From NCBI RefSeq assembly GCF_008831285.2, contig NC_045150.1, positions 806,001-870,000 of the forward strand: 64,000 bases of DNA, given 5' to 3'. This document shows positions 6,718-48,894 of this stretch, one piece after another. Every line of letters begins with the position of its first letter. The stretch's first letter is position 1. This DNA is from Nymphaea colorata. Taxonomy: Eukaryota > Streptophyta > Magnoliopsida > Nymphaeales > Nymphaeaceae. The notes under the pieces are model-generated. The model was not told the DNA's origin, ran no database searches, and was given only the letters and a program-made list of their open reading frames with translations. A program made the translations under genes and the position numbers.

Positions 6718-6943
6718 TGTTACGTTGAGAGGTAGAGAAGAACGAAAGGAAGGAGGAGAGAAAGGTAGCAGCAGAAAAACGTCCGGCTGCTCCTCTTTTC
6801 ATTAGACTAAATAATATTAGGGTTAAGACTAACCCTTTACATAAAGAGTCCACCAAAATATTAAAAATTTAGAAAGCTACCTAATACTAAATACCAAAAC
6901 ACATAACACTTTAAATATCAAAAAGCAACACGTTTTCTCAACA
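6718..6943 (-). repeat. 3' LTR of the copia element
   Basis: 226 bp, bounded by TG...CA when read on either strand. On the minus strand it begins TGTTGAGAAAACG and ends CTCAACGTAACA, so its ends also form a short inverted repeat (TGTTGAG/CTCAACGTAACA). It differs from the other LTR at about seven positions, five of them transitions. Confidence 0.95.
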
Positions 6944-6956
6944 CTCCCCCTCAAGC
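6944..6956 (-). other. Polypurine tract
   Basis: On the minus strand a purine-rich run ending GAGGGGGAG lies directly against the 3' LTR. The gag-pol stop codon TGA (6951-6953) lies inside this tract. Confidence 0.9.
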
Positions 6957-9900: not shown

Positions 9901-11192
9901 AAATTCTTCGGGAATTCAGGAGCATATAACACATCATGGACATGTAAAGAAGAAGAAAGATAAACATCTCCATGTCCTTCAACTGGCGATAGTCTTCCAT
10001 CCGCCAAACGAACATATTGAGGAGAATCAAATTTCTGCAGGTTTGAAATACTAGCATCTCCACAAAAGTGTTTAGATGCTCCAGAATCAATTATCCAACA
10101 ACCACTAGAAGTAGAGTTACCTGCAGAGTACGTTGAACTTGTGACAACTGTAGATGCCGATGAGGTAGAAGGAGTAGCATTAGACCTATGCTCCATAATT
10201 AAGTCAATTTCAGCTGGACTTAAATTAAGAGATGTAGCATCTACAGAAGCAGCAGTGGGATTCGCCTTAGGAGCCATACTGACAGGATGTGTATTTGAAA
10301 TAGAGCTGGATGAAGATGTCACAGACGAAAAAGTGGATGAGTTAGGTTTACCCACTTTATTCCAGCACCTATCCTCTAGGTGACCAAGACGACCACAATA
10401 TGTGCACTGAAGTCTTCCACGTCCTCCAGGGCCTCGGCCTCTTCCTCTACCACGAGAAGAATATAAACCACCTCTTCCTCCCCCAAATGAGGCAAGGGCA
10501 GATGGCTACGAGTTGTTTGAGGAAGGAGGAAGAGTAATAGCCAATCTGTTTAGTCTATTGAAGGCCTCATCAAGATCGAGAAAATCAGAGCCTGTAAGCA
10601 TTTGAGCCTTGGATGCAGAATAATCAGAAGATAGTCCAGCAAGAAATTTAACCACAATCATTTGCTCCATGTGAGATTTGAGACAATGCTTATAGGGTGG
10701 TTTTAAGGAATTCATCTTTTCATAAGTAAACTTCAACTTTGTAAAATATTCTGTCAAATCCATGTCACCTTGCTGCATTTGTAGCAATTATTGCTGAACC
10801 TGTAAAATTTTGTTGATATTTTTATCTTGAGAATACGTCTGCCGAAGAGAATTCCACATATCTTTGGCTGTATTATAATAACAAAGTCCTGCTGCTATGT
10901 GGGGCTGAGTGCTATTCATAAGCCAAGCACTAATAATGTTGTTTTCTTCCTCCCACCGTGCGTATTTACCAGTTTTTTCAACTGGTTCATCTTCTTCTAA
11001 TATATATTTCTTCCCATGTCCAACAACAGACAACATGAAGGTTCTAGCCCATACATCATAGTTGGCTCCATCAAGTTTGACAGTAGATCCAAACGAAAAA
11101 GGATTTGAGAAAGCTTTGTACTCAACACTTGCCTCTAAGTGTTGATTTCCAGATTCAGTTCTATCAAATTGTATAGATCTATTTGCAGCCAT
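6951..11192 (-). pseudogene. Copia gag-pol, one frame of 1414 codons with eight internal stops
   Basis: Start ATG at 11192 (MAANRSIQFDRTESG) and terminal TGA at 6951-6953 are in the same frame with no frameshift. Gag UBN2 region is at 11192-10506. An RGRGRGRG-rich stretch and zinc knuckle CTYCGRLGHLEDRC (CX2CX4HX4C) follow near 10420-10380. The protease motif WIIDSGASKHFCG is near 10100. Integrase is at 9713-8931, with catalytic Asp in VDVWG, Asp in RTDN and Glu in QQNGVVERKH. Reverse transcriptase is at 8350-7400 with YVDDIIL near 7890. RNase H is near 7420-7100, including EAYSDADYAG and SSAESEYQAM. Internal stops lie at about 10788, 10503, 9714, 8928, 8364, 8197, 8083 and 7858. Each can be explained by one C-to-T or G-to-A change (CAG/CAA, CGA or TGG to stop). 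All key active-site motifs remain readable. Confidence 0.93.
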
Positions 11193-11947
11193 GATAAAAC
11201 CACGAAATCAGGCCCACTATAGACTGAAAATCAACCTGTGACTGAAAAAAAACTCTGCACCACATGCCAGGCAGATCAGACGTTATATATTTTTGATAAT
11301 CAATGTCTGAAAATCAAACCTCCACACGCCAGGCAGATCAGACTTTATATATATTTTTGATAATCAATGTCTGAAAATCAAACCTGAAACAGAAAAAACA
11401 ACGTCTGATCTAATATATATATATATATATATATATTTATTTATTTATTTATTTATTTATAATAACATCCACTGAATCAGATCTGATCAACACCAACACG
11501 TTGCAACGACGCCACCTAGATCTGATACACTTCTGTATTCAGATCTGAACTGTTTCGAACAAACAAAAAACAACAACCTTTTTTTTTTACTGCAGATCTG
11601 AACCAACAAAAAAACAGCAATGTCGACCTTCAGATCTGAACCAAAACAGCAACTAGTCGACTTCGACCTTCAGATCTGAACATCAACAGCAACACATCTT
11701 CTTCAGCAACATGAGGGACTTCGACCTTCAGATCTGAACGTCAACAGCAACACATCTTCTTTAGCAGCAACATAGGGTACAGATCACGTCTCTACATGAA
11801 GAACGTGATCTGGACCTTTTTCTTTATCAAGCAGTCCCACCGACAGCAGCAACCTTAGACGCCCAACTTGATCGAGAATGATAGGAAGAGGAAAGGAGAG
11901 AAAGAAAAGCTACGGGAAACCCTAGACGTCACAGCCCTAGGACTCAA
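11193..11947 (-). repeat. Copia untranslated leader with internal tandem repeats
   Basis: 755 bp lie between the PBS and the gag ATG. Near 11266 and 11328 a unit of about 62 bp beginning GCCAGGCAGATCAGA is repeated. Near 11659 and 11717 a unit of about 58 bp containing CTTCGACCTTCAGATCTGAA is repeated. At 11412-11460 is (TA)n followed by (TTTA)n. CAGATCTGA recurs throughout. No open frame of note. Confidence 0.8.
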
Positions 11948-29083: not shown

Positions 29084-31754
29084 CGACGATTCAGCCAAGT
29101 ATGGTCCCCCGATGCTTTCTCTGAGGCTTCGGTTTCTTCTCCGCTTTGAGAAGGAAGAAGGGTTTCTCCAGCGAAGGAAAGAGAAAGGAAGCAGAATTTG
29201 GGGACGTCGGACTGTAATGTAGAAAGGCGGTTTTCCGGGCGCGCTTTGAACTGAATTTGCGAATAGAGAGCAATGGAAGCAGAGGGGACGTTTCAAAACT
29301 ATAAATAAGGCGGGGACGGGGCTCCTCGATATTTTGAAAATTAAAAGTCTACCTGCTAAGTTTTCGAAAATGTTATTTTCATCACCATAAGAATTGCCAA
29401 AATTCTCAAAAACAAATTATAGCCCCCTATATTTTGGTCCCCAAAGGAAAAACATGACTAAACCATGTTGTATGCACCATCTTAGTGAATGCAATATGTA
29501 TGCACCAAATCCATTTGGAGGCATTTTAGTTATTTTTTATAAAGAAATAAACATTTTCAGAATATTATGATGCTTTTTTTATTTTTCTTTTTTTCTAGGG
29601 TTTTCCCCTCGAGAGATCCGGGGTATTCTAATTTTCTCAATGTTTACTTGTATAACTAATTAACTCCAAACCAAGGAGACTGCATTTGCAGATAAAAAAT
29701 TGATTACTTCACGTTTTTTATCCTTAAAATAGGGAGGAGGTGTACTTTGGAACTAAGGTTATTTTAGTCATTTGACTTCTAGTGCACAAAAAACTATACA
29801 CACAGTGGCAGCTATGTATTAATAGTGTCCTCACCTAAACTCTCGGCCCCGCCACTGGTAAGGCTTAGTCTTATAATAAGTATATTTAAAACAAAACATA
29901 ATATAGAAAATATGCAGTTATTATACCCTCGGAAAAATATCAGCCTTTGATGGGAATTAGCTGGGCCGTTGATTGATTGCAAGAAAATTAAATTGTAAAC
30001 GTAAAAGCGAAACTGTTATTTCAGTAGTCCAAAAATATGCTCAAAAGAAGCGAATAAGAGTTTCTTTAAATGAAACCCTTTTATATTATTTGGGGTATTT
30101 TTCGAACTCTTAAAAAGACAACCAGATAATTTCATTAAATCTGATTTATAGGACAGGACAACTATATAATTCCATTAAATCTGATATATGAAAGCTTAGG
30201 GTGTGTTTGTGTGTGCATGCACACACACACACATATAATATAGATAGTTACGGCAATTTTTGCATTGGAGAGAGAGAGAGAGAGAGAGAGGAGCATGTGG
30301 GCCATAGTTAATTGATTTAGATAACGTGGGCACGTACAGGTGCAATCCAGAAGAAGATGACAGTGGGAGATGATTTCCGGACCAATATCCGTTTGCTCGC
30401 CACACACTTGTGTGGACCTTCAGCATTCCCTTGTGGTCAGACAACTCCTCACTCATTTTCCGGCTGGCCCTTTCACTCCTTGCCTTCCCATCACACAACC
30501 AAAACCGCAGACACAGCAGGCACTTTTCAGTGGAGAGCGGCAACACATTTTACTTTTGAGTGAGGGACTTTACCCACATGTATAATATATTCAATTTTGA
30601 AATGAAGTTATATATATATATAGAGAGAGAGAGAGAGAAACACCAAGTCATTAAATTAAAAAGAATCACGAAAAGGGTGATGCAGAAAACTGCCAAATAA
30701 AAGGATCATGATAAGGGGCGGAACTATCAATACAAATAAAACAATTTCTGTGGGCTCACACTTGCCGCCACCACTGATTCTTTGGGTGCCCAATTATGCA
30801 GAGAGTTTGCCAAGGAGAGTGAGGGTTCAAAAGGCAATTCCTTGCCCAAAAACTGGTTTCAAACTTGGTCCAGGAAAGAGTTCCATGTGATTTCCCATGG
30901 GAAAGTCGGTCTGGCAAAGAGTTTCGTATGATACGAAGCAGACGCTCTGTATGTGAAAGTTAAATTGGCCAGTTTAAAGGTCCACTGTTTTCTATGAAAA
31001 GCAAAATAGTTTTTACTACATGGTTTAATGTTTTTCATTCACTAAATGTATGTTTCTAAACTATATTATAAACTTAAGAAGTTATTGATTACTTTTTAAG
31101 CATTTCGCAGCTCTCTTTAAATAGATCAAGGGTTAAGCAGCTTTTTGTAAACTTCTCTATTCTTTTTCTCGAAAACAAGTTTAAATGACATGACAAAGCA
31201 TTAATGGTGATTTCTTCTTCGCATCTCTAGCAAAATGACTTAACAATGCAGCAAGGATGCACCAGAGCAATGTTGTAAATTTCTCTTTAAGCTTGTTGCT
31301 GACATATATTGGCACTTATCGGCTGATTTCTTCTGATACGATGCGTATCGACTCGCATATATTGGTCGATATGCATCGATGTTTAATTTATCGCAGAATT
31401 ACACGGAAGCAGAAACGGCGAAGTCAGGGATCGTTTTGCAGAAGATTCGTATTTTAAAAAGGGAAATAAGAGGATAGACGGACGGAGACCACCTTGCAAC
31501 TCTTCCTCTCATCCGGTCTTCATGTGATTTCTCTTTCTTGTCCTATAGAATCACTCCTTTTTTCTTTTAGACGACCATAATTCTGCAACATTACTGAGTG
31601 AAAAAATGAAAAGGACGTGATCCAAGTGCACAACAGAACAAATGGCGATGCTAGAGAGGGAGAGGGACGTGGGTTGGTGGACATTTCTGTAGATGGTCGT
31701 TTCATTCTTCTAAAAGCTCAAGCATACCTGCCTGTGAAAAGTGGAGAAGCAACA
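29084..31754. promoter_or_regulatory. Bidirectional intergenic region between PP2C and OR
   Basis: About 2.85 kb separates the divergent start codons (29083 minus, 31938 plus). The segment holds (AC)n at 30220-30232, (GA)n at 30267-30290 and a TA/GA run at 30613-30639. Near 29816-29860 is a GGCCCCGCCACTGG end like the common plant GTGGCGGAGCC repeat. A TATA-like CTATAAATAAGG lies at 29300-29311; it points the wrong way for a perfect PP2C TATA box. No other gene recognised. Confidence 0.55.
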
Positions 31755-31880
31755 GAAGCAGAATTGGCACCATCCTCTTCCCCTTCTTCATTGTTGTTGA
31801 TCAGTTGTTTTGAAGCATAAGAACAGAGAAGCTGAAGTGGCACCATCCTCTTCCTCTTCTTTATTGTTGTTTATCAATTG
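31755..31880. repeat. 73-bp tandem duplication in the presumed OR 5' leader
   Basis: A segment with GGCACCATCCTCTTCC followed by CTTCTTCATTGTTGTT and ATCAGTTG at 31766 recurs at 31839, 73 bp later, with a few changes. Both copies lie within 185 bp upstream of the OR start codon. Confidence 0.75.
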
Positions 31881-31937
31881 TAGAGAGAGCGAGAGAGAAC
31901 TTTGATCAGCAGGGAAGCAATCAGGAAATCATTCACC

Positions 31938-34900
31938 ATGCTCTGTGTTGGTCGACTTTTCACATGCATCGGACCTTCTTACTCCTCTTCCCCTCCCCAT
32001 TCTTCCCCTTGTCTATCTGAACTTCTGCGTATTAAACATCCGTCCCCTTCTCCTGTTCGATGGCGACTGAGCAGGGCCGCCATGGATGCTGCTGACTCCT
32101 CCTCCTTTCCGGCCAGCCCTTTGCAGGCGGAACCTGATGCCGTCGACAAAAGCTCGGGCAGGTAATCGGCTCCCCATCTCCTATCTTTCCGAATATGCTC
32201 CGTGCTTCCGTCCCTTTTTAGACTTTACAGCATTTCAGTGATTTTGGGGATGCATGGTTTGATTAAATTTCTCCATAATTGTAGTGAATTTGATGTGGCT
32301 GCAGTTTTTGTATCATAGAAGGGCCGGAAACGGTACAAGATTTTGCAAAATTGGAGTTGCAGGAACTTCAAGACAATATCCGGAGCCGGCGGAACAAAAT
32401 CTTTCTACACATGGAGGAGGTTAGTTTTTTAGTGATTCAAACTGTTTTCCTTTTCTTTGTTAACTATTGGAGAAGAATGAATCTCGTCGATTGAACCCTG
32501 AATGTGTATATAACTGTTTATGCATATTTTACCTTGAACCAAGTCATTCAGGAAGTTTGTTTCTTATAAAATAGCTACTGGGAGCAGCAGAGGCTACCAA
32601 GATCATTCTAAGTCAGTTTTTTCTAGCTTAATAACCAGCTGTATTGGAACCCAAGGGGTTCACACCAATGAGAGGGCCTTGGCGAGGAAGCCGCTGGTCA
32701 TGAATTCAAACCTCATTGTAGCATTTTGCACGAAGGCATTGAGGCCTCACTTGACTTGCATGGATGAAGGCTACTAGAGTCAAGGGGTCTCCATCCCTGA
32801 GTTTCACACTATTGGGGAGACCATAACAGGTGTCGCAGGGTTAAACTAGTATGACCAAGTCGTCCATCCTAAGAGTGGTTTCTCTCTCTTGGAAAACGAA
32901 TTTTAACGGTGCTGTCAACCTTCCTTGTTGTTCAAGGCTCTTTCAGTTCAAAGTTGTAGACTATTGGAGAGGCCACCATAGGCATGGTCTGTCAGAAGTC
33001 AGAACAATGCTGCCAGGTTTCCCACGTCGAAAATGGTTTTTTCCCACCCCAAGAATGGTTTTCTACTATAGGGAGAGAAGAAAAAAGGGAAAATCATAGT
33101 TTGTCAACTGTTCTTGTTCTTCACTGTAACCTTGCCTCTTACACCATTTCAACCCATGGCTCATAAAGGACATGAAAAAATGGGTGTTGAATGGCCAAGT
33201 TCAATCTATCTTCTACCTATCCACATCGGGATATTCACAGTGCATGCTAACTGTTGCTATCGAACATGAATATGTTTACATTGCTATGGTACCATGTTGA
33301 AATTGGCTAAAGAGTGAACGGCGTGACCACTCTGGGCATGGATGAAAAGTACATGCATCTGGGGCTGTTAAAAGATTTAGAATTCCAAGAATCTATAATT
33401 AGCCAAGTGACTACGGTTGTCATCCAGGGGCTAAAATGGCCTTATTATCTAAAGTATTAATCGTGTAACCAAAAGCAGAATTAGGTAAGATGTCTTTAAG
33501 TGGATATTCTGCTATAATCTCTATGGACTTCTCAAAACCCTAATTATTCAAGTCAAGCTTTATCAAAGAACTGTTCTTTCACAAACACAGTTTTCTTCTT
33601 TACTCCAATAGCAATGTACAATTTCCTAATATACAGTATGTGAAAAAATATCCCAAAGGAGGAAAGTTAAAACAAGCTTTGCTATACAAAAGATGAAATG
33701 CATTGAAATCCACTTGCTTCAGACTGGACCTAAACCCTTCCACCAAGCCTAAGTGTGACTGTTTCATAGTTGGGACTCAATAAGCAAATTTATCTAGTTG
33801 TAAGCTAAATGATTTGATTTGCCTACTAAATTGCTAATATCTGTGCTGTAAAATGTCCCAAAGATAATGCCACACTGAGAATACAATATTCCAAGTTATT
33901 CTTACAAAACATTACAGATAGAAGTACCACCAATCAACGTGGGAAACAGCATCTTCTCTTTCTGTTCAGATGTGAACTTGCCTAATATAGTGTTTCTACT
34001 GCTCTTCAGTATGTATTTAGGTCGTGTATGGTTGGTTTTTGTAATCCAACATGTATTTCCTCATTATTTTTTTTGGGTACAATTTTTGGACTATTGTAGG
34101 TCCGTAGGTTAAGGATCCAACAAAGGATTAAAAGTGCTGAGCTTGGTATCTTCAATGACAAGCCTGAAAATGAACTTCCCAATTTTCCATCATTTATACC
34201 CTTTCTGCCTCCACTGGTGAGAATTTCCTTCTTAGCAATTAATTTTCCCACAAGAAAATAAAAATGTCACAAGACATTCTTTCAGATGTATGTTCCTTCA
34301 ATTTCTTTTGCTTCATTTAGAAGTTACATGTTAGATTCAGAGAACTATGTGATGAAAGCAGACACCGGCGAACTTGAGGGTCTACTATGCTACTTGTTTT
34401 ACTCTCATTGGTGGCATCATCCTTTTTGGTGGCCTACTTGCTCCAACTGTAAGTGCTTCTTCCTTTCTGATTTTGTTATGTGACATAGTGGAATATCATA
34501 TGGCTTTGCATATTTGTCCTTAAGAATTGATATTATCCACTTGTCTCATGTACTGCATGATCGAAAAAAGATTTGTTCTTGCCTCCAATTTTAACCCATA
34601 ATAACTTGGATGTGTGACTCCACCTGAATTAATTCCTTGTTCATCTGCTTATCTTCTCTACCAGCTTACTCATCTCATCTAGTTTGTGGTTGCTATTAAT
34701 CTAACTTTGATTCTTGCTGTTTCAATGTTCAGAATCCATTAAAAACCTTCTATAATTTTCTTTGATTGTGGGCATTCCCTTGGCATTTGATCATTCAATC
34801 ATCTATATTTTTTGCATCACGGACTTTGTGCCACAGTCAATGGCTTACCGGTCATGCATCAATATGAGAAGACCATCATTGCCACTGGGTCAGAAAACTA

Positions 34901-37900
34901 AGTGTGTTCTAATTATCAGACTTTCAATTGGAAGGGCCTTGCAGGAAATGTCTTCTCACTTCAATGGTAGGGTGCTAGCATGTTGTGCTTTTATGAGACA
35001 TCCAACACAGGAGATTGTCTGACATCTCAAGGATTCTCGAGAAGACGTTGGGTCCACCTTCTTGAAGTTGTCAATTAGCTTATTTTAAATATGAATAGTA
35101 CTTTTGGTGTTTAACATTTGCATTCATGGCATCATGTCATGCGACCCTTGGGTGTAATGTGCAGACTCATGTCGTCATCGTCAGAATCATCAAACGTTGT
35201 TGCTTATTCAATATTTGACCAGTTTAGATCCAGGCAATCTAATGTCTAGACTCCAAACCATGCCATATATGCATATGGTAGACTATGCCTAGTTACATGG
35301 TATAGAAAGAGAAGTTCCAAGATCCAGTTTCACAATCTAATAATATATAGGTTAATGATGTTTGCAAAACCAGAGTTTCGTAGTTGCCTTGCCTCCTAAT
35401 CACACACATGGTTGGCTGATAAAAGGGTCAAGTTTCTACTTGGACGACATAGACATTAGAGAGTCGTCATAGTATCTTTATACATGGCTTAACATAGGGA
35501 AACCAAAATCAAGTAATAGATTTATTTCCTGGTGCTTTTTCCACTTATACCCCAACTTCATAGGTTAATGTTTGAGAAGCTACTTTTCTTCTTCTGCAAT
35601 CATTTTTCATCACTCACTAATCCCCCTTTTTTTTGGTTTGTGGGTTGGGTGGTGGGTTGGGGGGTTTGGAGGTTGGCAGCATGGGGGAATCTGTGCATGT
35701 GTGTGTGTGCATGTTTTGGATGTTAAATCACAATATAATGAAAGCTGACAACACACAATCAAACTGGTTCAGGTTTCATTCCTTCAGTTTACTTTCAACC
35801 ATAAATGCGTACCAATTATATATCTTTTCTTTAACAGTATGTTTCATTGTTAATCACTGTTGGAATTGGGAATGAATCGTTTTATAGAATGGTATAGAGG
35901 ATCAGCCTGAAATGGTAGTTATCTTTTTACCTAAACAGTACAATAACAAGTCATTATAGAAGACCAATGTACGCTGCATCTGCTAGTTCAAGCCAATTCT
36001 TTCCATACGGGCTTCATATCTGTTGACAGCGTTTTTATAAGGGGTTGAATCATGAATGTGTATCCATCAATACAACCCATTATTGATAACCTTGCTATTG
36101 TTTGTGATGGGACCTGGGACTTATCATTACCAGTTGGCTGTTACCATATTCATTGTCAACTGAATGTAGAAAGAATGCCTGTGTTCAGCGCACCATTGGC
36201 ACTCTCCAGTTGCTTTTTTCCCCTTCTCCAGAAATGTGCCTCATATAACAAAGCTTTCATGTTTTCCTTTTCTAGCTTGAGCTTAAACTGGGACTAGGAG
36301 GTACATCATATGAAGATTTTATTCGCAGCATGCATTTACCCCTTCAATTGAGGTAAATATATCATGCTTGTATACATTGAGTTGGACTTCTTTTATCCTT
36401 ACGTACTGTTTTTAACTTTTTTTACTGTTTCTACAAACACATTATCATTTTACAACTTTCTTTTTCAATATTTCATGCCATTTGAATGAAGATTTTTTTC
36501 TCCTTTGCAGTTATTACTGATCAACTAACAGTTGTTTTATGTATCCAATATTGAGAATTTTTACCTGAGACCAATTAGTTGAATGGTTATACGATGCATT
36601 AGAAAGTTGTGGTTTGATTAGCTACTACATGCAACTCTTTTACCAGCAGAAAATAAATATGCCAAACGTGGAAGTATGTGTAATTATTTCATATTTTAGA
36701 ATGCTATCTGATGCCACTCAAAAGTAAATTTCATTGAGTCAAAGCTATCATCACTAAAAATCAGAGTTGCCAATGCTTCTTCTTTGTGCTTCCAAAGAAT
36801 TGAGCTTTCTTGCATATTCAGAAGTGTAACTGCGAATCTAACACAATGAGTTGGATATTCATTATGTGCCTGAATAAACTGGGTTCCAAGAGTTGACAGA
36901 TGCATTACTGTGGTTCAGAAAGGTACTAACAAAGATAGGATGCTTAGAACCCAAAGGTGAATTATTCATGGTTTAAGTCATGTATGGCTTAACAGCAGTT
37001 GGAGTATGTAGTGGATTTTAGTAGATCCCTTTTCTTGCTTTAATTAAGAGAAGCACCTAACCAAGATGAAGATCCATTACATGGACATAATGGTATCACT
37101 AATTGTTCCCAGCATGGCTGAATTATGTCTTTTTTTTTAATCTTTTTTCTTTTAAGTTTTAACCCATCCTCAACTGATAAAGGGTATGATGATTTACTAT
37201 TTATTCCCCCTTATGCAAGGACTCTAAATGGAATATCCAGCCTATTCATGGCGTCATTTTTGTAGGCAGCCATCTGGAGAAATCATCCTTTCAACTCAAC
37301 CAGAAGGTGTATCAAAAATCAGCTAAGCTACTTGGTCTGTCTCTTGTGCCTCAGTTGGCATGTGTGCCCATTGCATCCTTATGAAGGTCCACTAGAATGG
37401 AAGCACCATTTTAGCTTACCAAACATCAAGATGCTCTTTTACTTAGTTTATGTACATGGACAAAATCAGACAGCATTCAGTCGGCTGCAGCCACATTGAC
37501 CCAACATGGGTGCAGATGCTGGTGCCATTGTGGCTTGTGTGTGGGTCAGCCGTAGATATCGTGTGTTTCATTAAGAAAAAACGCAATATCAACATTAAAA
37601 AGAAAGAAAACAAAAAAATGAAAACAGCAAGGATACACATTTGTTCTGAAAAAATGTGAAAATAAATTTAATGTGTTATCACTTTTTCTTTGTATCTTTC
37701 ATTCCTAGCACTGATTCTGTTTATAAAAAGGTCATTGTCACCACTAAAGAAATGTTTATGTTGAATTTTTGCACGTGGTGCACTTTTTCTAAAAAGGGGC
37801 CAAGTGGGTTAAATTGGTGGTAAACGTTAAAATATAAATCCTTCACCAGCACGTTGAAGAGGCGTCTCTTAGGATTCCACCTCCTTGTAGAATGTGTTAA

Positions 37901-38187
37901 GATATTTAATGTTCCTGTAACATGTGAAGAGTCTCCTAGGATTCTATGTTGTAGTTAATATCCTTGTTATATGTGAAGTCTCGTAGGATTCTATGTTGTA
38001 GTTAATATCCTTGTAATATGTGAAGTCTCTTAGGTTTCTATGATGTAATTAATGTCCTTGGAGCTTGTGAAATCTCCTAGGATTCTACGATTGGAGACTC
38101 TTAGAATTCTGGAAATGGGATTATAAATAGAGGCCGTGCAAACCATTTTGGCTACGGCTTCTTCTCCTCAGTTTCTTCTTGTTTTCA

Positions 38188-38235
<48 letters not shown>

Positions 38236-41200
38236 TCCTGCGTGAGTACTGTTTTCTGGTTACAGAAATTGGTGCTAGATTTCTATCAGTAAAGAAGGGT
38301 AATTTGAAATATAGAAGATAAATGAAAAGCTTATGTATATAGACCATCTGAACCCATTTTCTGGAGAAGAAAATTTAGATAATGAACAACTTGATGTGAG
38401 TATAAAACAAATGAAAAATCTTACTCTACTTCAAGGGATGAAGATTAAGACTTGATTTTTTTTTTCCTTTTCTAAAATGAAAAATGACCTTATTTGTGAT
38501 AAATCCATGAGGGCTACAAGCTGTTGTTAGTTTTATGTTTGCCACTTCCCATTCTCGAATTTTCATGTGACTTTGCTAGTTTTCTATATTGGATATCTTT
38601 CATCATATTGAGATTATTAAATGTTGGTTTTAGTTGTCATTAGTTGACCTTTATACGTACATTAAATTATTGTCATTTTTTATTACCATTGAAACATCTT
38701 TTTATCTTTTTACTGGTTATTTTTTATGTCTCCTTATCAGTTTCTAATTATTTTACCTTAACCTAATTTTTCAAGTTTTTTTTTTTAATTACCAAGATTT
38801 TCCCAAGGAAAACAACTTTGCCTAAAAATACCTGAGAAAAACCTCGGCACTAGAAACACAAGAACTTGTTGCTATGATGTGGGTGCTTCTGCGTCAGCAT
38901 AATTGCAGCAACATCAACAAAGAAAGAGCAGAAGAAGGAGGTGAAAGAAGGAAGGGAAGGAGAAAGAAGAAGGGAGAGGAGGAAGAAGGTGGTACCTAGC
39001 AGCGGAAGGAGGGGGGGCAACAGTAGGCACCAGATAGGTAGAGGCCACCAACAAGGGGGGAAAAGAGACTTTTTTTTTTCTCCTGTACTTTTGCTCCTTC
39101 TTATTTGAAGTTTTGAACTTATAAGAAAGCAATCTTCATTACAATTTAAGAAAGGTACAAGCGAAGAGAGGAGAAAGGTACAAGCGAAGAGAGGTACAAG
39201 AAAGGTACAAAAGAGCCTATTCACACAAAGAGCACCTTCAATGTGCAGAAAGGTACAAGCGAAGAGAGGAGAAGAAAATATTATTGAAATTCAAAGAGGA
39301 AAACCCCTAAAGCTTATGTAAGAAAGGGTGCCAAGCACAATGGCTAGAGGGCTAGTCATTGGGAGCTCACAAACAGCCTGATCAAGTCACGGGCTATTGT
39401 TGTTTGGACAAAATAAAAAGAAATAAAAAATTAGAAAATTGGAGAAAATTACAATAAACAAAAAGAAAAAAGCACAACTACTATAGTATATTTCTTTGAT
39501 AGTTTTCAGCAAAGTTGTTTTCCATGGGAAAATATTGGCTATTTTTTTAAAATGAAAAGTACCTTAAAATTAGGTAAAAATAAAATAAGTGAGAAAATAA
39601 TAAGAAGACTTGCAATGGAATGGCATATTCAAAGTCGTCCTTTCTTAACCTCTTTTACTTTTTTCTCTTTTTAATGTTAATATTGTGTTTTTCAAAAAAA
39701 TGCAAAATCTATGGTTGTGGTGTATATGCATATGTATATGATTGCAATATGTGCACATAGATAAATATATAAATGTATTACATGTATTCTAAGTCACATG
39801 GGTACTTCAGTAAAGCCCACGTACCCTTGTTGCCGGACCCGTACCCAAAATGGGTACTTGGATGCACTTTGGTACCTTTATATTCAAATTGCTTAATTTT
39901 ACTTTGATTTAATTTTTTCCAGCTTACTTTTCATTATATTCTTAGAGTTATTGTTCATTAACATATAATGTTTTTATTTATATCACTTGTTTACTAAAAT
40001 GTTGCTTTCATTTTGATTTTTTTGTGTTATTTTGCATATATACATACATATATCTTGTCGTACTCCCGTACCCACATTTTTTTAAGTTGTCGTGTCCATA
40101 CCCGTACCCATGTGACTTAGCATGTATTCTTTCTGACAATATATTCAGGTGAATTTTGCATTTTCTAAAAATTCTTTGTTTGTAAATAGTAGTCATAAAT
40201 ATCATTCAAGCACATGGTCATGATTGCTTTTGAGAAGAGTGTAGAGAAGAGGAAGAAGACTAGAGAAGAGGGGGGGGGGAGGGAGAGAGAGAGAGAACAT
40301 GTCTTTTCTCATTAACCTGAATCCCATAGTAAAAAGGATTAAGGGGCAGCAACTTAATTACAAAAGAAGTCCACATAATAAAACAAAATTCTTAATGAAA
40401 ATCATCTGCAATAATAAATATTAACCCATGACTCCTAATTATTTACTAAAGAGTCACCAAATTCTCTCAACAATCCCCCTCATGTTGGTGCAAAGATGTC
40501 AACCACGCGCAGCTTGTTTTACCACTTCGTAAAATGAACACTAGCAAGAGGCTTGGTAAACACATCAGCAACTTGACCTTCTGAAGACACATGAATAATC
40601 GATATAACTCCTGTTTGAACCATGTAATAAATATAATGACAATCAATTTCTATGTGTTTGGTCCTCCCACCAACATAGGATTGTTGGTAATATAGATTGT
40701 CGCCTTGTTATTACATCTCATCTCCATAAGTAACTTCAGCTGAACTCCTAGATTGATGAACACAATTTTTATGTATGTCATTTCAATAGTTGTTTGGGCC
40801 GTAGCCCTTTATTCTTACTCAACATTAGATTTTGCCACAACAGTGTTTTTTCACAAAATTATCTGTCAACACTCCCCCTCAAGCTGGAGCATAGAAGCCC
40901 ACCATGCTCAACTTGTTGCATTACTTCATAAAATAGCAATAAGTAGAGGTTTCGTAAACACATCAGCAACTTGAACTTCTGATGACACATGAAAGTCGAT
41001 ATAACTCCTGTTTGAACCATGTCACGAATGTAAAGACAATCAACTTTTGTGTGTTTATTCCTCTCATCAAACTCAGGATTGATGACAATATAGATTGCCG
41101 CCTTGTTATTACATCTCATCTCCATAGGTAACTTCACCTGCACTCCTAGACTGCTGAACGCAGTTTTTATGTATGTCATCTCAATAGTTGTTTGGGCCAT

Positions 41201-44200
41201 AGCCCTATATTCTGATTCAACATTGGATTTGGCCACAATAGTCTGCTTCTCCATAACATCAGGTTTCCACCAACAAATACATAGAAACATCTGGTAAACT
41301 TCCTATAGTTAAGGATCCTGCATAATCTGCATCAGAGTAAGCTTCTATTTCTAGATATGACCCTTTTCTTAAACAACGGTCCCTTGCCTGTAGAAGATTT
41401 CAAATATCTCAAGACCATCATGGCTATGTCCCAATGGACTTTCTTCAGCTTGTCAATAAACTGGCTCAACTTCCCAATAGGTAAAGATATATCCAGCCTA
41501 ATCACAATCACATAAAAGAGCTTTCCAATCAATGATCTATATGACTTGCTATCCACTGGTTTTGACTCATTATTATGCACATGTAATCATGGATTTATAG
41601 AGATAGTAGCCGGCTTGGTGCCAAGTATGCTCATCCCTTGCAACAAATCGAACACATATTCCTTTGGGAGAGGACAATACATTTATTCCTGGTTACTTCA
41701 ATTTTGAAGAACTATCTCAGTGGGCCCAGATCTTTGGTGATAAAATATTTCTACAAATATTTCTTCATATATGAAATTTCTTTCTCATTGTCACCAGTCA
41801 AATAATATTATCTACATACACCACAACCTCTACGATACTTTTGGAACTCTTTGTTATAGAAAAGGAGTGATCCAAGGGAGATTTTTGAAAATCAAAATCT
41901 GACACTACCTTAAATAACTTATCGAACTTGACGTGTGGGATTTCCTTCAAATTATAAATAGCCTTTTTGCACTTGCATACCTTTGCACACTCCCGTTGTC
42001 TCTCAAATCCAGGTGGTTGCTACATATAAAGTTATAAACTGGCTCAGACAAATCACCATATAAAAAGATGTTTTCACATCTAGTTTAGACATGCTCCAAC
42101 CAAAATGCACTGCAACAGAGATAATAAGTTCAATAGTACCTCAGGAGAAGAGGTTGATGGAGGTCCATGAGAGGGTTGTCTTCGAGTGTACGCTTGTGAG
42201 GGATGAAATAGCAGGAGAGTTGTCAATAAGAGTAGGAGAACAAGAAATAAACTCTAATGAAATCGATGGAATAGGCAATGGAAATAGAGATGACACCTCA
42301 AGCTGCTTTATATTGTCAGGAACCAAGAAATAAGGAGTAGACTCGAAAAAAGGTTATGTCTACATTGATATCCTTGTTTTGTTTTTTTATATATAGGGAT
42401 TGAAGCATCTGCACCCCTTCTGGTTTCTTGGATAGTCCAAAAACACACATTTGACTGCTTGGACTGAGAATTTGTCTCTTTAGGGCCAAAGATATGAACA
42501 AAACAATTACATCCAAATGCCTTTGGTGGCAAGTAAAACACATCCTCGTTCACATGTCACCACCTATGTTGGAAGCCTAAAACAAGGGGTATCACTAGAA
42601 GCCCGAGGAATGATGACTGAAAGATGGCTAAGCCGATTATATGCATCGGCGAGAGTGGGATCTCAGCACCTGTGAGCATCTGTACCTTAGCCACAGCTTA
42701 CTCAGGAGATAGTCCATGTAGGAATGTAGCTACTAGAGTCTGTTTCTGGTGTTTTTCTATAACAAGCTTTGCATGGGGACCAAATTGCATTCAGTTGGAG
42801 TTAAAAACTCTCGTACTCTACCTGCAAAATCCTTGTTCACATTCTTATCCTATGAATGTACCCACAATAACTCCCACATCTATTTTGCAGTAGTTAGTAG
42901 ACTAAGCCATCTGCAATATGGGGCTGGAGGCTGTTCATAATCCAGGCCGTAATAATATTATTATCCTCCATCTATGTAGCATATTTTCCTACTCTCCTTC
43001 GTCTCCTCTTCATCAATAATATGGTCCTTTCGATGTCTTATTGCCGATGTCATAAAAGTATGTGACTACCTTTCATAGTTAGTGCCATCTAATTTTACAT
43101 ACAACCCATACAAGAAAGGATTAGCAAAAGCTTTATAATCTGCTGTGATGTCAGATTTACCGTCCTTTCCAAGATTCTTATCTTATGCCATTGAGCCCAG
43201 CAATGTATAGTATGCAGGCCAACAGAAAAGATCAACAGTAGTATGAAAGAAATATGAACAATCCACAGCACTAGACCAGCAACTAGTCAATCCACATCCT
43301 GAGATCAGATCTGGGATAAACCTCAATGGGATCTGATCTAAACCATCAACATCAGATCACCCACTAAAGCAGCCACAAAATAATGGAACAGGAGTTCAAA
43401 TCAGATCACAAGTTAAATATCTAACAAAATGTGATCTCAATCACCAACTTAACTTGTGCAGCCACAGGGATAATAAATCACAGATTCAAATCTGATCATA
43501 AACTTAGGTCTGATAATCATGACTAGACAAAACCAATCACTTTCTAATATCATCGCTAGGAAACTTCTAATAAATGGCTAGAAAGGCCAAGTCTGGTGGA
43601 CGTCAATAACAAGAAGAGCAATGCACTGAACAATGAATTAAACTCTACGTCAAATTTGAATAAGCAGCTCTAACTGATGGTAAGCTATATATATATATAT
43701 TATATACACCACAAGATTTCATGTCTTTAACTACAAAGACAGATCTAACCAGCAGCAATATCTACTTACTAGATCTGTATATGCTTCCACACAACTCCCA
43801 CAACAGACATGAATATCAACTCCAACAATGACGTGAAACTAGCCAGCATGTATGACGTCGAACTTCAACTGAACTGTATACCATGTGGCTCGACTCAGCT
43901 CTCCTGGCATCCATCCAGCATAAATACTATCAAACCACACTAGCTGGACTTTTTTCCACAGCAACATCAACTTCAATGAGACATCGATCTAGGGTTTTTT
44001 TGTTAGAAAACCCTAGATCATGCTAAAGGAACACAATCCAAATGTGCCAACCAAGATGATAAAGAACTTGAAAAGCAAGGAATAAGAGGGAAAGAAGAAG
44101 AGATAGAAGAAAGGAAAGATTTTGGCATCAACAGCTCCCAAGATGTGCTCTGATACCATGTTGATAAGATTATATATATATAGAGAGAGAGAGAGAAAGA

Positions 44201-44237
44201 GAGAAAGAGAAAATGCCTTTTCTCAATAACCCTAATC

Positions 44238-44285
<48 letters not shown>

Positions 44286-46699
44286 ACATGCCTTTTGCCT
44301 TTTCTCAATAACCCTAATCCCACATTAAAAGGGCTCAGGGGGCAGCATCACAATTACAAAATAAGACCACATAATAAAAATAAAATTATTAAAGAAGACC
44401 ACCTGCAATAATAAATATTAACCCACAACTCCTAATTATTTACTAAAAAACCCTTCACAAAATTATCTCTCAACATTTCCCTATTGTTTTATGCTATCAT
44501 ATGCCTGCCAACCCTCTGCATTGAGGCAGCCCCATTCTTAGAATATGCCTTCTGGTGGATTTGATCTATATGTTTTCACGTGTAACAAATGCTGGTAGGA
44601 AATATGTTCTGTCATCATCTTAGTTAAAGTTGTAACGTTTTGGAATGTTCCAGTCAGGTTGATCCCATAGTGGCATCATTCTCAGGGGGAGCTGTTGGTG
44701 TTATTTCAGCTTTGATGGTTGTTGAAGTCAACAATGTCAAACAGCAAGAGCACAAGAGATGCAAATACTGTCTTGGAACAGGTCCGTTCTTGATGATCAG
44801 ATTTATATATTTTTTTTATTATTTTGATATTATTTGGGCAATACATTATCTGGTCTAACAGCGTGACCATAATATTATACAACATTTTTTTGTTTTTTCC
44901 ATTCTCCCCGCAAAGGAATTTAGTATCTTTTCAGTCCTTGAGAATCTGTGCTGCTAGTGACAAGAGATTGATTATATTTGGTTCAATAGCCATGACATCA
45001 ATTTCCAAATCCAACTGTTTTGAACAACACAAGTATTAATATGGACAAAATATTTAGAACTTAGATGAAATCATAGTCACCAATATAATTCTCACAAGGT
45101 TTTCTAATTTCTTTTTAAGAGGAAAATGTCAAAATTATAAAACATGAAAAATTATAAAAAACACAAAGAAATTTTAATGATATACTAGGCCTTCTGCTAT
45201 TTCCTTGGAAAAGGTTAGAAATAGAGGTCGAAAGGCTCTTTAAATACATATTGAAAACAAAAAGAAAAAAATCATAAGCTTTAAAATATGGAAGAACGGA
45301 ACCTTTTGAAAGTCGCTGAAAAATATTGGGAATATCTTAGAATAATATGGTGCTGTTTTATTTCAAGATATATTTTGAAAATATTATGAATCTTGTGATA
45401 CTTTGCTGATATTATCAGCTAGCACCAAGGTGGCAATGGAATCACGTTATTTTAAAAAAATTGGAGATTTGCTTACGTATGAAATAGGATTGCATGACAT
45501 GCAAATGCATCAAATGGAATAGATTGCATAATTTTATACGTCATTCTCAGTCAATGATGAACTTTAAAGGAGAGACAGACCACCATTCTTAGGCAATGAT
45601 AGTGGCACTGATATGCTGTGAGTATTAAGGGTGAGTTCACATTTCCAGAGCAGCCTTCCATATGATTCATTAATTTTTGAGATGGATATTGCTCTTTCTG
45701 AAGTTCATGATCTTTGTGAGATGATTTGATTTTTGAATTCAAGATTGAGCTAATTAACAAGTTAATTTCTCGTTATTCTTTGTAGGAATGTACCATCTTT
45801 TGGTTTTGAAGTCAAGCTTAACAGTTATCCATTTCTGTTTTAAGCAGCTGAAAGTTGAGTTAGAAAATGTACTTAACCATGAATAAGAATAATGTATTTA
45901 ATCAGTTCACATGTATAATTAATGCAATTTACTTATTTATCTTGCTCAGGCAATTCCTTATGGACTAGGCCCTTTTGTTTGGTGGAGTGATAATTAACTG
46001 GCTTTTGCTTGGTTGCTCTATTCTGCCTGTTTCTGCAGGATATTTGGCTTGTGCTCGCTGTTCAAACACAGGAACTATTCCAATTGAACCAATTGTAATG
46101 GCTCAAGGTTCTGATCAACCTTTACCACTGCCTAAGACACAACGGTGTAAAAACTGTTTAGGTGCTGGAAAGGTGATGATTGCAGTTTTTTTTTCTTTTG
46201 GTGACTTTTTAGTTCAATGACATTTAAATATTAGCTTGAGATGTCCATATGTCTTCAACTACCAAGCCGTAATGATGGAAATTTCTGACTTCTATTCTCT
46301 TTTAGGGAATCAATGTTTGAGGTTTAGTTAGTTAGCATCATGTATCATGCAGTTCATTGTCTTCACGTAGCTATTTCATGCACATACTTTTGTGCTTCAA
46401 TTTTTTTTTTTTGGTAGCATTTAATGAAATGACCTGTTGCAATATTTTCCTGAAATGGCTGAATTAACATGGAATCAGTCAGCTATGTATCAATCATCAC
46501 ACAACCTGGTTCAGTGAAGCAGCAAGTTGGAATGTTTCTTTAACATTATGGCAGGCTTTCAAATTGATGGCCAAGATTTTGAAGATCATCATATGTGATC
46601 TGTGTTTCTATTGTGTTGCAGGTTATGTGTCCAACTTGCCTTTGCACCGGAATGGCTATGGCCAGTGAACATGATCCAAGAATCGATCCATTTGATTAA
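31938..46699 (+). CDS. OR: ORANGE (OR), plastid DnaJ-type zinc-finger holdase (319 aa, eight exons)
   Basis: Exons: 31938-32161, 32305-32419, 34100-34216, 34362-34448, 36276-36352, 44654-44781, 46039-46172, 46622-46699. All introns are GT-AG and the joined 960 nt is open. OR proteins hold phytoene synthase in active form, aid chromoplast formation and carotenoid storage (family knowledge). Residues 1-60 are Ser/Pro-rich and basic, a likely plastid transit peptide. GFCIIEGPETVQDFAK-type sequence starts at 75. NIRSRRNKIFLHMEE spans 99-113; all its arginines are present, and known carotenoid-boosting OR alleles replace an Arg in this neighbourhood. Two hydrophobic segments lie at about 162-180 and 218-232. 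Four CxxCxxxG repeats are at 243-250, 254-261, 286-293 and 297-304. The end SEHDPRIDPFD is the family signature. Intron 5 is 8301 bp, so the gene spans 14.8 kb. Confidence 0.97.
32634..32855 (+). repeat. Candidate SINE or similar retroelement in OR intron 2
   Basis: A GC-richer island within the AT-rich intron. CCTTGGCGAGGAAGCCGCTGG resembles an internal promoter A box and GAATTCAAACCTC a decayed B box (GGTTCGAANCC), about 30-40 bp apart. The tail reads AGTCAAGGGGTCTCCATCCC then GTGTCGCAGGGTTAAACTAG. The match is by eye and old; other origins are possible. Confidence 0.4.
34449..36275 (+). other. OR intron 4 (1827 bp)
   Basis: AT-rich intron between the first membrane exon and the LELKLGLGGTSY exon. 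Contains a GGTTGGGTGGTGGG stretch and a short GT run near 35690-35710. No transposon recognised. Confidence 0.8.
37770..38265 (+). repeat. LTR-like remnant with U3 direct repeats and TATA box
   Basis: Units of 47-49 bp containing TGTGAAGTCTCCTAGGATTC and TGTAGTTAATATCCTTG repeat from about 37923, 37972, 38020 and 38066. They are followed by TATAAATAG at 38122-38130, a CT-rich leader with (TC)n at 38190-38228, and a possible LTR end ...TTACA at 38264. The next bases, AATTGGTGCTAG, look like a decayed primer binding site. This layout (repeated enhancer-like units, TATA, leader) is typical of a copia LTR. No internal element sequence follows, so it may be a solo LTR. It points the same way as OR. 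Confidence 0.5.
38122..38130 (+). promoter_or_regulatory. TATA box inside OR intron 5
   Basis: TATAAATAG followed by AGGCCG and a CT-rich stretch, directly after the four direct-repeat units. Good fit to a plant TATA box; it belongs to the LTR-like remnant. Confidence 0.5.
39789..40120. mobile_element. hAT-type MITE in OR intron 5 (332 bp)
   Basis: Perfect 17-bp terminal inverted repeats: CTAAGTCACATGGGTAC at the left, GTACCCATGTGACTTAG at the right. The 8-bp target duplication CATGTATT is exact on both sides (39781-39788 and 40121-40128), as expected for the hAT superfamily. The interior has CCCGTACCC words near both ends and no coding capacity. Confidence 0.9.
40230..40843 (-). mobile_element. 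Copia fragment A: 3' LTR plus end of pol
   Basis: About 240 bp of LTR ends CTCTCAACA at 40472. A pyrimidine run ATCCCCCTCATG (the PPT, minus strand) follows, then about 355 bp encoding the last part of RNase H and the pol C terminus on the minus strand. It stops abruptly at about 40843, where a second LTR end begins. The LTR is similar to, but clearly diverged from, the one at 44159-44475. Confidence 0.75.
44147..44158 (-). other. Primer binding site of copia fragment B
   Basis: The minus strand reads TGGTATCAGAGC, exact initiator tRNA-Met PBS, abutting the LTR at 44159. Confidence 0.93.
44159..44475 (-). repeat. 5' LTR of copia fragment B
   Basis: 317 bp, inner end at 44159 next to the PBS, outer end CTCTCAACA at 44475. 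It is enlarged by two TA/GA microsatellites (44171-44215 and 44237-44285) and a short internal duplication of the TTTTCTCAATAACCCTAATC segment. Confidence 0.85.
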
Positions 46700-46932
46700 T
46701 GATGTTGCTGAATAATCTTATCACCTGATTCTGGTAGCCATTGTGGGGAAATTTTGTACTGCAGCCTAACTGCAAAGTGAAGGATACAAAATAGAAAATA
46801 ATACTGGTTATGTAGTTATTCAAACATAATTGGCCCTTGTATCATTGATGACATATAGAGAAAGAATTGCCTATGATTGTAATTCTCTCATATTGAATGA
46901 TGCCAATATGTTACCATTATGTTACACAAATC

Positions 46933-46938
46933 AATAAA
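46933..46938 (+). terminator. Candidate polyadenylation signal for OR
   Basis: AATAAA about 234 bp after the OR stop codon, at a normal distance for a plant 3' UTR. Confidence 0.55.
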
Positions 46939-48894
46939 AAAGATTTGAGTAAACAGTGTTAGTCCTACTAGGCTTGGATGCCAAATGGTGCATTTTGGCA
47001 TCCATATTATGGGGTAATTTCTGGTTTCTAGTGCCAATTGAATCTTAACTATAATGGCGTTAAGGGATACTTCTCTATGAACATCTAACCGATGCTATGT
47101 GTATCATAGCGTATCATACGAGGACACCCAATGCCATCTTTGAGTGATTGAATAAGGAGAGTCAGGTCCCAGAAGAATTCACCTCCACCATTCAAAGAAT
47201 ATTCCCTAAAGATGCCAAAAAATTGAAAACACGAAATGCATCCTTAAAGGTTGAAGTTTTAGATTTCTTTTCAATCTTCTAACTCTACGAACATGATATT
47301 TTCTAATGTTTAAAAGAGGAAAAATGCTACTGAATGGTTTTATTTGAATACATAAGTAGGACTTTGTGAGGATCAGAATTTCATGGCCTTGAAATCCCAC
47401 AGTTTATACAATCTTACCTGACAATGGAGTTTACTAATATGTTAATCAGTTGTAAACGTGGAGAGTCTATTAATATGACATTTATGTAATCAATATTATA
47501 GGCTTTTCATATGATCTTAATGTAACTAATAAATAATCAGGCTTTATTATTTGCTGAAAACCGAGGAAATGTCCAGAGACGGCTCATGGAAAACAAATGG
47601 CATAAAAGTTTCTAAAAGGCTGCCTTTTTCTTATGCGGGTTAGGATCATTTACAATAGAAGAGATAAATACACACATTAGAGTTTCTTTTTTCTTAATAC
47701 AAGAAAACCACATTTGGAAGTTCGAACTTAGTCACACATAGGTTTTTTGGGCACATTGTCCCCCAGCTTGAATGTTCTTTTTGTTTTTCATCTGAGCTTC
47801 TTATTTCTATTGATCAAAACAGAATACGCCCTGTTGAAATTCTTTCTTACTATTCAATTTCCTATTTTGTTTATCTTATTTAATTGTGTTTCTTGTTTCA
47901 TTAATTAGAATTCAAAGATTTAAAAGCAGCATTCAGCTCACTATTTTTTTGTATCCATCAACAAGCGAAAGTTATGGTTTTGATTTATGATGCTGGCAGC
48001 ACCAATTTAAATAATATGGTCCAACATTAAGTCGGCGCCTAAACATGGTCCTAGAGATCCTGTGTATGAAAGTAGGTACTTAATCCAGGTGGGAGAGGGA
48101 GATATATCGTAATGATAAGAAACTTGTAAAAGAATGTGTTTTTTAACCTAAAATATTGATGCATCTTTATACATCACTAAACAGCACACAAAAATTTATA
48201 TATCACTGATAATAAAGGGATCATTTAGGCAGTTGGATTTGGGTTCAATAGACATCTCTGATTAAAGGCACCATTTACTTCTTTTTACTTCTGATCCTAC
48301 CCTTTTAAAAGAGGAATAAAAATAAAAAATAAAAAGCATTTCGTCTGGCTGGTTACCTTTTTAGGGAGAAAAATAACCTACCAAAATCAACTTCTACCCC
48401 GAATCTGACACCCGTCGACTGTACGTTTATGCAAATTTTTAAAGGGAAACCGTAGGCTTAATAGCAGCGAGCAAGTTTCAATAAAAGATGCCCAAAAATC
48501 TAATCAAAATGCAGCAGCAATTGATGCCTAACATCCCAGAAAACCTACAGTTGCCACCGGCTGTCTGCCTTTCTGGCCTCAAATGATTTCTGCCGGTTTT
48601 TGCTTTTGACTAAATGCTGGGAATCCTAGAAGAGCTTTTGAAACTAGTGGAAGCACGTAAACAGCTCAAAAACCAGTGCGTCTAAGTGTGATTTTTCTCT
48701 CTTCAAAAGCTCCGGTCCCAATCTGTATATGTTTAGCAATTAAACCAGTGCAAGTATTGTCGATTTTAAGATTAAAATATATGATTAAATGAAAACAGGC
48801 TGCCGTGAAACAGAACCGTTCATTGTTTTTGTTGATGTGATTTGCCGGAATATGACAACGTCCAGGTGTCTCCATCCATTAGAACTAATGGACA
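46939..48894. other. Intergenic DNA downstream of OR, no gene seen
   Basis: AT-rich with no recognised coding region, RNA gene or clear transposon end. Confidence 0.5.

Follow-up and report, generated by a model that had tools for sequence, protein, structure and literature searches.

An 8.3-kb intron filled with mobile DNA in an ORANGE gene of the water lily Nymphaea colorata

Insertions of LTR elements into ORANGE (OR) genes have been described in Brassica. The dominant Or allele of cauliflower carries an LTR element of ~4.7 kb in exon 3 (PMC6851270, PMC6969158), and in BrGOLDEN of Brassica rapa an LTR element likewise lies in OR exon 3 (PMC9603932). As portrayed in these reports, the exon 3 elements of both species disturb splicing and raise carotenoids (PMC6851270, PMC6969158, PMC9603932), and the rice work presented in one of them ties the OR effect to in-frame aberrant transcripts and not to a loss of function (PMC6851270). 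Members of the ORANGE family are described as usually having seven introns, with eight in some genes (PMC6969158, PMC9603932), and four CxxCxxxG motifs are given as a feature of the family (PMC9603932). Mobile DNA within introns is documented elsewhere. The working Arabidopsis genes RPP7, AT3G05410, and AT1G11270 are reported to hold ~5 kb of retrotransposon sequence in an intron (PMC4417168). According to the same line of work, Arabidopsis genes with intronic transposable elements show relatively high expression, and the loss of heterochromatic marks from long intronic elements is accompanied by early polyadenylation (PMC4417168, PMC10241880). Long introns filled with LTR elements have been reported for Chloranthus spicatus, for which, together with the magnoliids, group averages of 1.66-3.35 kb are given (PMC8626473).

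We analyzed a window of 64 kb from N. colorata (contig NC_045150.1), this term referring to the whole stretch of DNA at its full length; it contains no ambiguous bases (N). A microsatellite primer published for chromosome 13 of N. colorata (Ny-13.1, PMC9601493) has a single exact match in the genome, on contig C13, and together with its partner primer delimits a product of 177 bp with CT and CA repeats, which assigns the window (C13:806001-870000) to chromosome 13. The window holds a plus-strand gene that we take to be ORANGE from its likeness to the Arabidopsis sequence; on the same basis, this gene looks Or-a-like, and a second gene on contig C1, described below, looks Or-b-like. Its eight exons are located at 31938..32161 (exon 1, with the start codon at 31938), 32305..32419 (exon 2), 34100..34216 (exon 3), 34362..34448 (exon 4), 36276..36352 (exon 5), 44654..44781 (exon 6), 46039..46172 (exon 7), and 46622..46699 (exon 8, including the stop codon). 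When spliced in silico (31938-46699), they yield a single unbroken frame of 960 bp that encodes 319 amino acids, and the span from start to stop is 14.8 kb. Introns 1 to 7 measure 143, 1680, 145, 1827, 8301, 1257, and 449 bp, respectively; all seven have GT..AG ends, and the number of exons and introns fits the rule for the family. Inspection of the protein by eye revealed the four CxxCxxxG motifs CKYCLGTG, CARCSNTG, CKNCLGAG, and CPTCLCTG. A Pfam search with the 319-residue protein returned matches below the cutoff only, and a search of the PDB returned two weak matches, the better of which had an E value of 0.31.

Intron 5 (36353..44653, plus strand) begins at the donor GAG/GTAAAT at 36353, ends at 44653 with the acceptor TTCCAG/TCA, and splits the Ser codon of the segment LPLQL-S-QVDP. 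A first-pass annotation had placed an intron of 8.3 kb with intact splice sites at exactly these positions, in an ORANGE gene with an intact frame; the coordinates and length agree to the base (8301 bp), GT and AG are found at the two ends, and the frame is borne out by the eight exons. From the sequence, we infer that exons 5 and 6 are joined. Two AG acceptors lie 4 bases apart at the start of exon 6 (CCAG/TCAG, 44650-44657), and the frame is kept by the first only; use of the second, which lies 4 bases inside exon 6, leads to a frameshift. If the donor is left unspliced, a stop is reached one codon past exon 5, at 36356, and the predicted product is a protein of 207 amino acids that ends in LPLQLR and lacks the residues of exons 6 to 8, including the Cys-rich domain. 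A search of positions 30000-48000 against Rfam gave no matches at the gathering score, and a tRNA scan found none. In the open-licence literature, covered mostly at surface level, we found no report of this intron.

A search of the whole genome (407.8 Mb in 783 contigs) with the ORANGE protein, in which all 19 candidates were scored, gave 20 matches at an E value of 10 or less. One further ORANGE gene was retrieved, on contig C1 (C1:15677516-15682780, locus L036); weaker matches on C2, C12, and C11 covered the Cys-rich end only, and two others, on C5 and C2, had E values of 0.44 and 2.2. The comparison of the two genes covers exons 2 to 8. Exons 2 to 6 and exon 8 are equal in size in both (115, 117, 87, 77, 128, and 78 bp), whereas exon 7 measures 134 bp in the window gene and 137 bp in the C1 gene. 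The intron positions agree as well, that of intron 5 included, but intron 5 is 126 bp long in the C1 gene versus 8301 bp in the window gene. Introns 2, 3, 4, and 6 are also shorter in the C1 gene (1151, 105, 1037, and 265 bp versus 1680, 145, 1827, and 1257 bp). The longest intron of the C1 gene is intron 7, with 1738 bp (L036:5469-7206) versus 449 bp in the window gene. OR genes had been considered compact in the first-pass annotation, and this holds for the few comparisons available, namely, the 126-bp intron 5 of the C1 gene, the OR gene of B. rapa, with 1648 bp in total, 8 exons, and 7 introns (PMC9603932), and that of rice, in which exons 3 to 5 are reported to span 457 bp of genomic DNA versus 233 bp of cDNA (PMC6851270).

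As a control for intron length within the genome, we used the gaps between adjacent exon matches of kinesin and myosin motor domains, which provide approximate lengths from two motor-domain families that are not a random sample of genes. For kinesin, there were at least 160 matches; only those on the large contigs C1 to C14 were considered, those on small contigs and ten on large contigs that lacked a neighboring exon match were dropped, and 37 of the 59 gaps between neighboring exons were adjacent in the profile and were used. The two largest unused kinesin gaps, of 4.3 and 11.9 kb, may conceal long introns. For myosin, 89 of 98 matches were used, the 9 on small contigs being dropped, and 68 adjacent gaps were retained (unused gaps reached 6.9 kb). 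Among the matches listed, the resulting 105 control introns had a median of 106 bp and a maximum of 6.9 kb, the latter in a myosin gene; 14 were at least 1 kb long, 3 at least 2 kb, and 1 at least 5 kb, whereas none reached 8 kb. The 8301-bp intron exceeds all 105 control introns in length and is thus atypical for this genome. It is extreme, but it lies on a tail that is common to other genes of this genome. A separate observation concerns small unplaced contigs. Kinesin and myosin matches on such contigs (e.g., C288, C464, C507, C711, and C159) read through several TAA and TAG codons and few TGA codons; the picture is less clear for C87 and C557, in which TGA is read through as well. Two frames that were checked, L084 (536 amino acids) and L085 (532 amino acids), are open under genetic code 6, with 10 and 11 TAA/TAG codons, no TGA, and about 50% G+C. 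These small contigs look like ciliate contamination of the water lily assembly.

About 81% of intron 5 (some 6.7 of 8.3 kb, by coordinate arithmetic) is mobile DNA. Where the first-pass annotation had noticed at least three insertions, at least four can be distinguished, namely, (i) an antisense Copia element, (ii) a miniature inverted-repeat element (MITE) of 332 bp, (iii) a diverged repeat bearing inverted arms, and (iv) a sense solo LTR nested in the latter. Each of the assigned repeats has relatives elsewhere in the genome.

The old, broken Copia element occupies 40218..44475 on the minus strand (edges placed by eye, with an approximate left edge). Its 5' LTR (44159..44475, minus strand) is followed by the primer binding site (PBS) TGGTATCAGAGC (44147-44158, minus strand), and its degraded 3' LTR is at 40218..40472 (minus strand), the edges of both LTRs also being set by eye. 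A Copia-type reverse transcriptase domain (RVT_2) was detected at 41801-42019 on the minus strand (Pfam E value of 2.1e-10), whereas five other pieces of the element gave no Pfam match. The domain itself is very common in this genome (11,294 first-look candidates, of which the best 150 were scored). The frames are interrupted by many stops, and the LTRs are 81.6% identical, with a Kimura two-parameter distance (K2P) of 0.213 over 282 aligned bases that extend slightly past the LTR end; BLAST gave 79.9% over 214 columns. An element that is still active was considered and rejected, given the broken frames and LTRs that are 82% alike. No target site duplication (TSD) is visible by eye in the flanks, the 3' LTR end being degraded, and the best other copy of the LTR, among the best 40 of 63 first-look candidates, covers 217 of 311 bases at 81% identity. 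Translation of the K2P value into time gives a weak date: at the rice rate of 1.3e-8 per site per year, it would correspond to ~8 My. At a substitution rate of 1.51e-9 per site per year (PMC8626473), it would correspond to ~70 My. The 3' end of the element is tandemly duplicated (40454-41270), the repeated unit comprising the RNase H end, the polypurine tract, and ~20 LTR bases; the copies are ~398 bp apart and 82.5% identical over 389 bases (K2P, 0.20). This distance is close to that between the LTRs, and thus the duplication may be roughly as old as the insertion itself; it may have arisen through, e.g., a template switch. A second Copia element is present in the window at 6938-11207 (minus strand), has longer open stretches with integrase and RVT_2 detected by Pfam, and is 68.6% identical to the intron element over 1.3 kb; the latter seems to lack stretches that the former still has.

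The diverged repeat with inverted arms (37547..39700, right edge approximate) is probably a nonautonomous DNA transposon, with the solo LTR embedded in its left arm. No TSD was found for it by eye. The genome search with this repeat produced 771 first-look candidates, of which the best 40 were scored, giving 79 matches. The solo LTR (37825..38288, plus strand, 464 bp) belongs to a young Copia family and has the same orientation as ORANGE. It is a single LTR that lacks an internal region and is flanked directly on either side by the perfect 5-bp TSD GTAAA (37820-37824 and 38289-38293), which is the structure of a solo LTR. A truncated element in which the text after 38264 forms a leader was rejected, as the LTR extends to 38288 and the TSD comes next. 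Among the best 40 of 531 first-look candidates (self included), the 39 others are 92 to 98% identical to it. Twelve loci were fetched, 6 of which remained unaligned (unoriented). L059, L062, and L065 have the PBS TGGTATCAGAGC after the LTR, where the window copy has the TSD instead, and L060 and L064 resemble 3' LTRs; the first base is C in the window copy and T in the relatives. The full-length relatives L082 and L083 contain RVT_2, and their LTR pairs differ by K2P values of 0.0065 and 0.0022, respectively. Because these pairs are nearly identical, the family must have been active recently. The solo LTR differs from the four LTRs of these two elements by K2P values of 0.022 to 0.029. Its nesting in the older repeat is indicated by relatives of the repeat that match both flanks: the alignment of L051 extends to 4 bases past the rejoined site, and that of L049 begins 16 bases beyond it, no single relative among those compared aligning far across the site.

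The sense orientation of this LTR, the TATAAA motifs at 37833 and 38122, and the recent mobility of its family, seen in the LTR pairs of two relatives, are compatible with its use as an alternative promoter, in the sense direction, from which exons 6 to 8 would be transcribed. Such a transcript would be devoid of exons 1 to 5, and we regard this function as exceedingly improbable.

The MITE (39789..40120, 332 bp) has the terminal inverted repeat CTAAGTCACATGGGTAC and is bounded by the perfect 8-bp TSD CATGTATT at 39781-39788 and 40121-40128. The hAT-type class of MITEs is characterized by short length, terminal inverted repeats, an 8-bp TSD, and many copies, and the features found here make this element a good candidate for that class. 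Among the best 40 of 757 first-look candidates (self included), the 39 other copies are 83 to 91% identical. Exact 8-bp TSDs were readable in 5 of 19 other loci (L018, L021, L026, L028, and L030); in L031 to L033, 7 of the 8 letters agree, L023 has no TSD, and most of the remaining loci were unoriented or misplaced.

Perfect TSDs thus surround two of the four insertions, the solo LTR and the MITE, and argue against misassembly at those two sites. This bears on the possibility that the content of the intron is wholly or partly an assembly error or represents an assembled allele unlike that of most plants of the species. The sequence is described as a draft assembly from PacBio reads (PMC7015852), and foreign contigs are apparently present in it; against an error speak, in addition to the TSDs, the absence of N from the window and the position of the solo LTR within a repeat of which other copies match the sequence on either side of this LTR. 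We therefore consider an artifact or an unrepresentative allele very unlikely.

The part of the intron that precedes these insertions (36353..37546) gave no other match in the genome search and may be old intron or an unrecognized insertion. When positions 36360-37740 were compared with the genome, 8 matches were obtained, of which 1 was the query itself and 7 started at or beyond 37547; the search skips very common words, so that the absence of a match for 36353-37546 is no proof of a single copy. In this segment of 1.2 kb no insertion can be named; its CpG ratio (0.16, with 6 CpG) is the lowest among the 14 stretches compared, and it could carry something functional. As to the order of events, the old Copia element would have arrived early and the solo LTR last; the MITE and the inverted-repeat element may have inserted at various points, the latter before the solo LTR.

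According to the first-pass annotation, long repeat-rich introns in a carotenoid gene can alter splicing, heterochromatin marks, or polyadenylation and hence carotenoid content; the sequence features considered in the following lend no clear support to such an effect here. Introns that depend on IBM2/EDM2 contain an insertion that bears CHG methylation and H3K9me2, with early polyadenylation when these are lost. By analogy, intron 5 could act as a regulatory switch in which heterochromatin on the insertions sets the degree of read-through, and loss of which would lead to early polyadenylation within the intron and to the 207-residue protein. Such behavior is documented for long intronic retrotransposons of Arabidopsis RPP7, AT3G05410, and others (PMC4417168, PMC10241880), and the stop one codon past exon 5 is in line with it. 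The intron contains 17 AATAAA motifs on the sense versus 6 on the antisense strand (raw counts). However, of the 17, 10 are in the antisense Copia, 5 are in the inverted-repeat element, 2 are in 36353-37546, and none is in the young sense LTR; moreover, the old Copia is antisense, and its own terminator therefore points the other way. The observed-to-expected CpG ratios are 0.28 for the old Copia, 0.32 for the inverted-repeat element, 0.49 for the solo LTR, and 0.81 for the MITE, and they do not fall below those of introns 2, 4, and 6 (0.28 to 0.33) or that of 36353-37546 (0.16), exons and the whole window having ratios of 0.49 and 0.52. No CpG depletion special to the insertions was thus seen among these stretches, the introns being CpG poor as a group. 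Taken together, a switch of this kind appears unlikely. In a more elaborate form, for which we see a very slim chance, the recent solo LTR on top of older insertions would have turned intron 5 into a gate under chromatin control; this gate would fix the proportion of full-length to 207-residue ORANGE and thereby adjust carotenoid storage in a flowering plant of an early-diverging lineage.

It is highly probable, in our view, that intron 5 is an ordinary spliceosomal intron that was enlarged by repeated insertion of mobile DNA, is removed whole, and carries the insertions as tolerated passengers. The entire 8.3 kb would be transcribed and then spliced out as one intron, and the insertions would be tolerated since the splice sites and exons are untouched; were they heterochromatic, transcription through them would presumably be sustained by readers of the Arabidopsis IBM2/EDM2 type. 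A number of observations support this reading. (i) The frame, the GT..AG ends of the seven introns, and the four CxxCxxxG motifs are intact. (ii) The exon sizes and the position of intron 5 match those of the C1 gene. (iii) Two insertions have perfect TSDs, the repeats have relatives elsewhere, and RVT_2 is common in the genome. (iv) Long introns have precedents in the 6.9-kb myosin intron and in the LTR-filled introns reported for Chloranthus (PMC8626473). The growth of this intron to 8.3 kb through four or more insertions of different ages is a real but fairly ordinary kind of event. It offers a clean example of a compact plant gene that takes up several kilobases of mobile DNA in one intron with its frame intact, at a locus with a sister intron of 126 bp, insertions whose order can be deduced, and TSDs that remain readable.

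When compared with the known systems, the long introns of Chloranthus and the magnoliids are general, whereas the sampled introns of the water lily are mostly short (median, 106 bp) and intron 5 is an outlier. With Arabidopsis RPP7, AT3G05410, and AT1G11270, the locus shares retrotransposon sequence inside an intron; unlike these genes, the water lily intron contains a mixture of broken and nested elements. In the Arabidopsis cases, methylation and, in mutants, early polyadenylation have been measured. As in cauliflower Or and BrGOLDEN, an LTR element lies within an ORANGE gene, but in the water lily the elements are in intron 5, not in exon 3, and the exons and splice sites are intact. An exon insertion of the cauliflower type was rejected, since all exons are intact, exon 3 (34100-34216) included. 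The locus resembles the Brassica alleles in the gene affected and in the type of element but differs from them in position and damage, so that it should not be filed with them. It provides instead a natural contrast within ORANGE between an apparently tolerated position in intron 5 and the disruptive exon position in Brassica.
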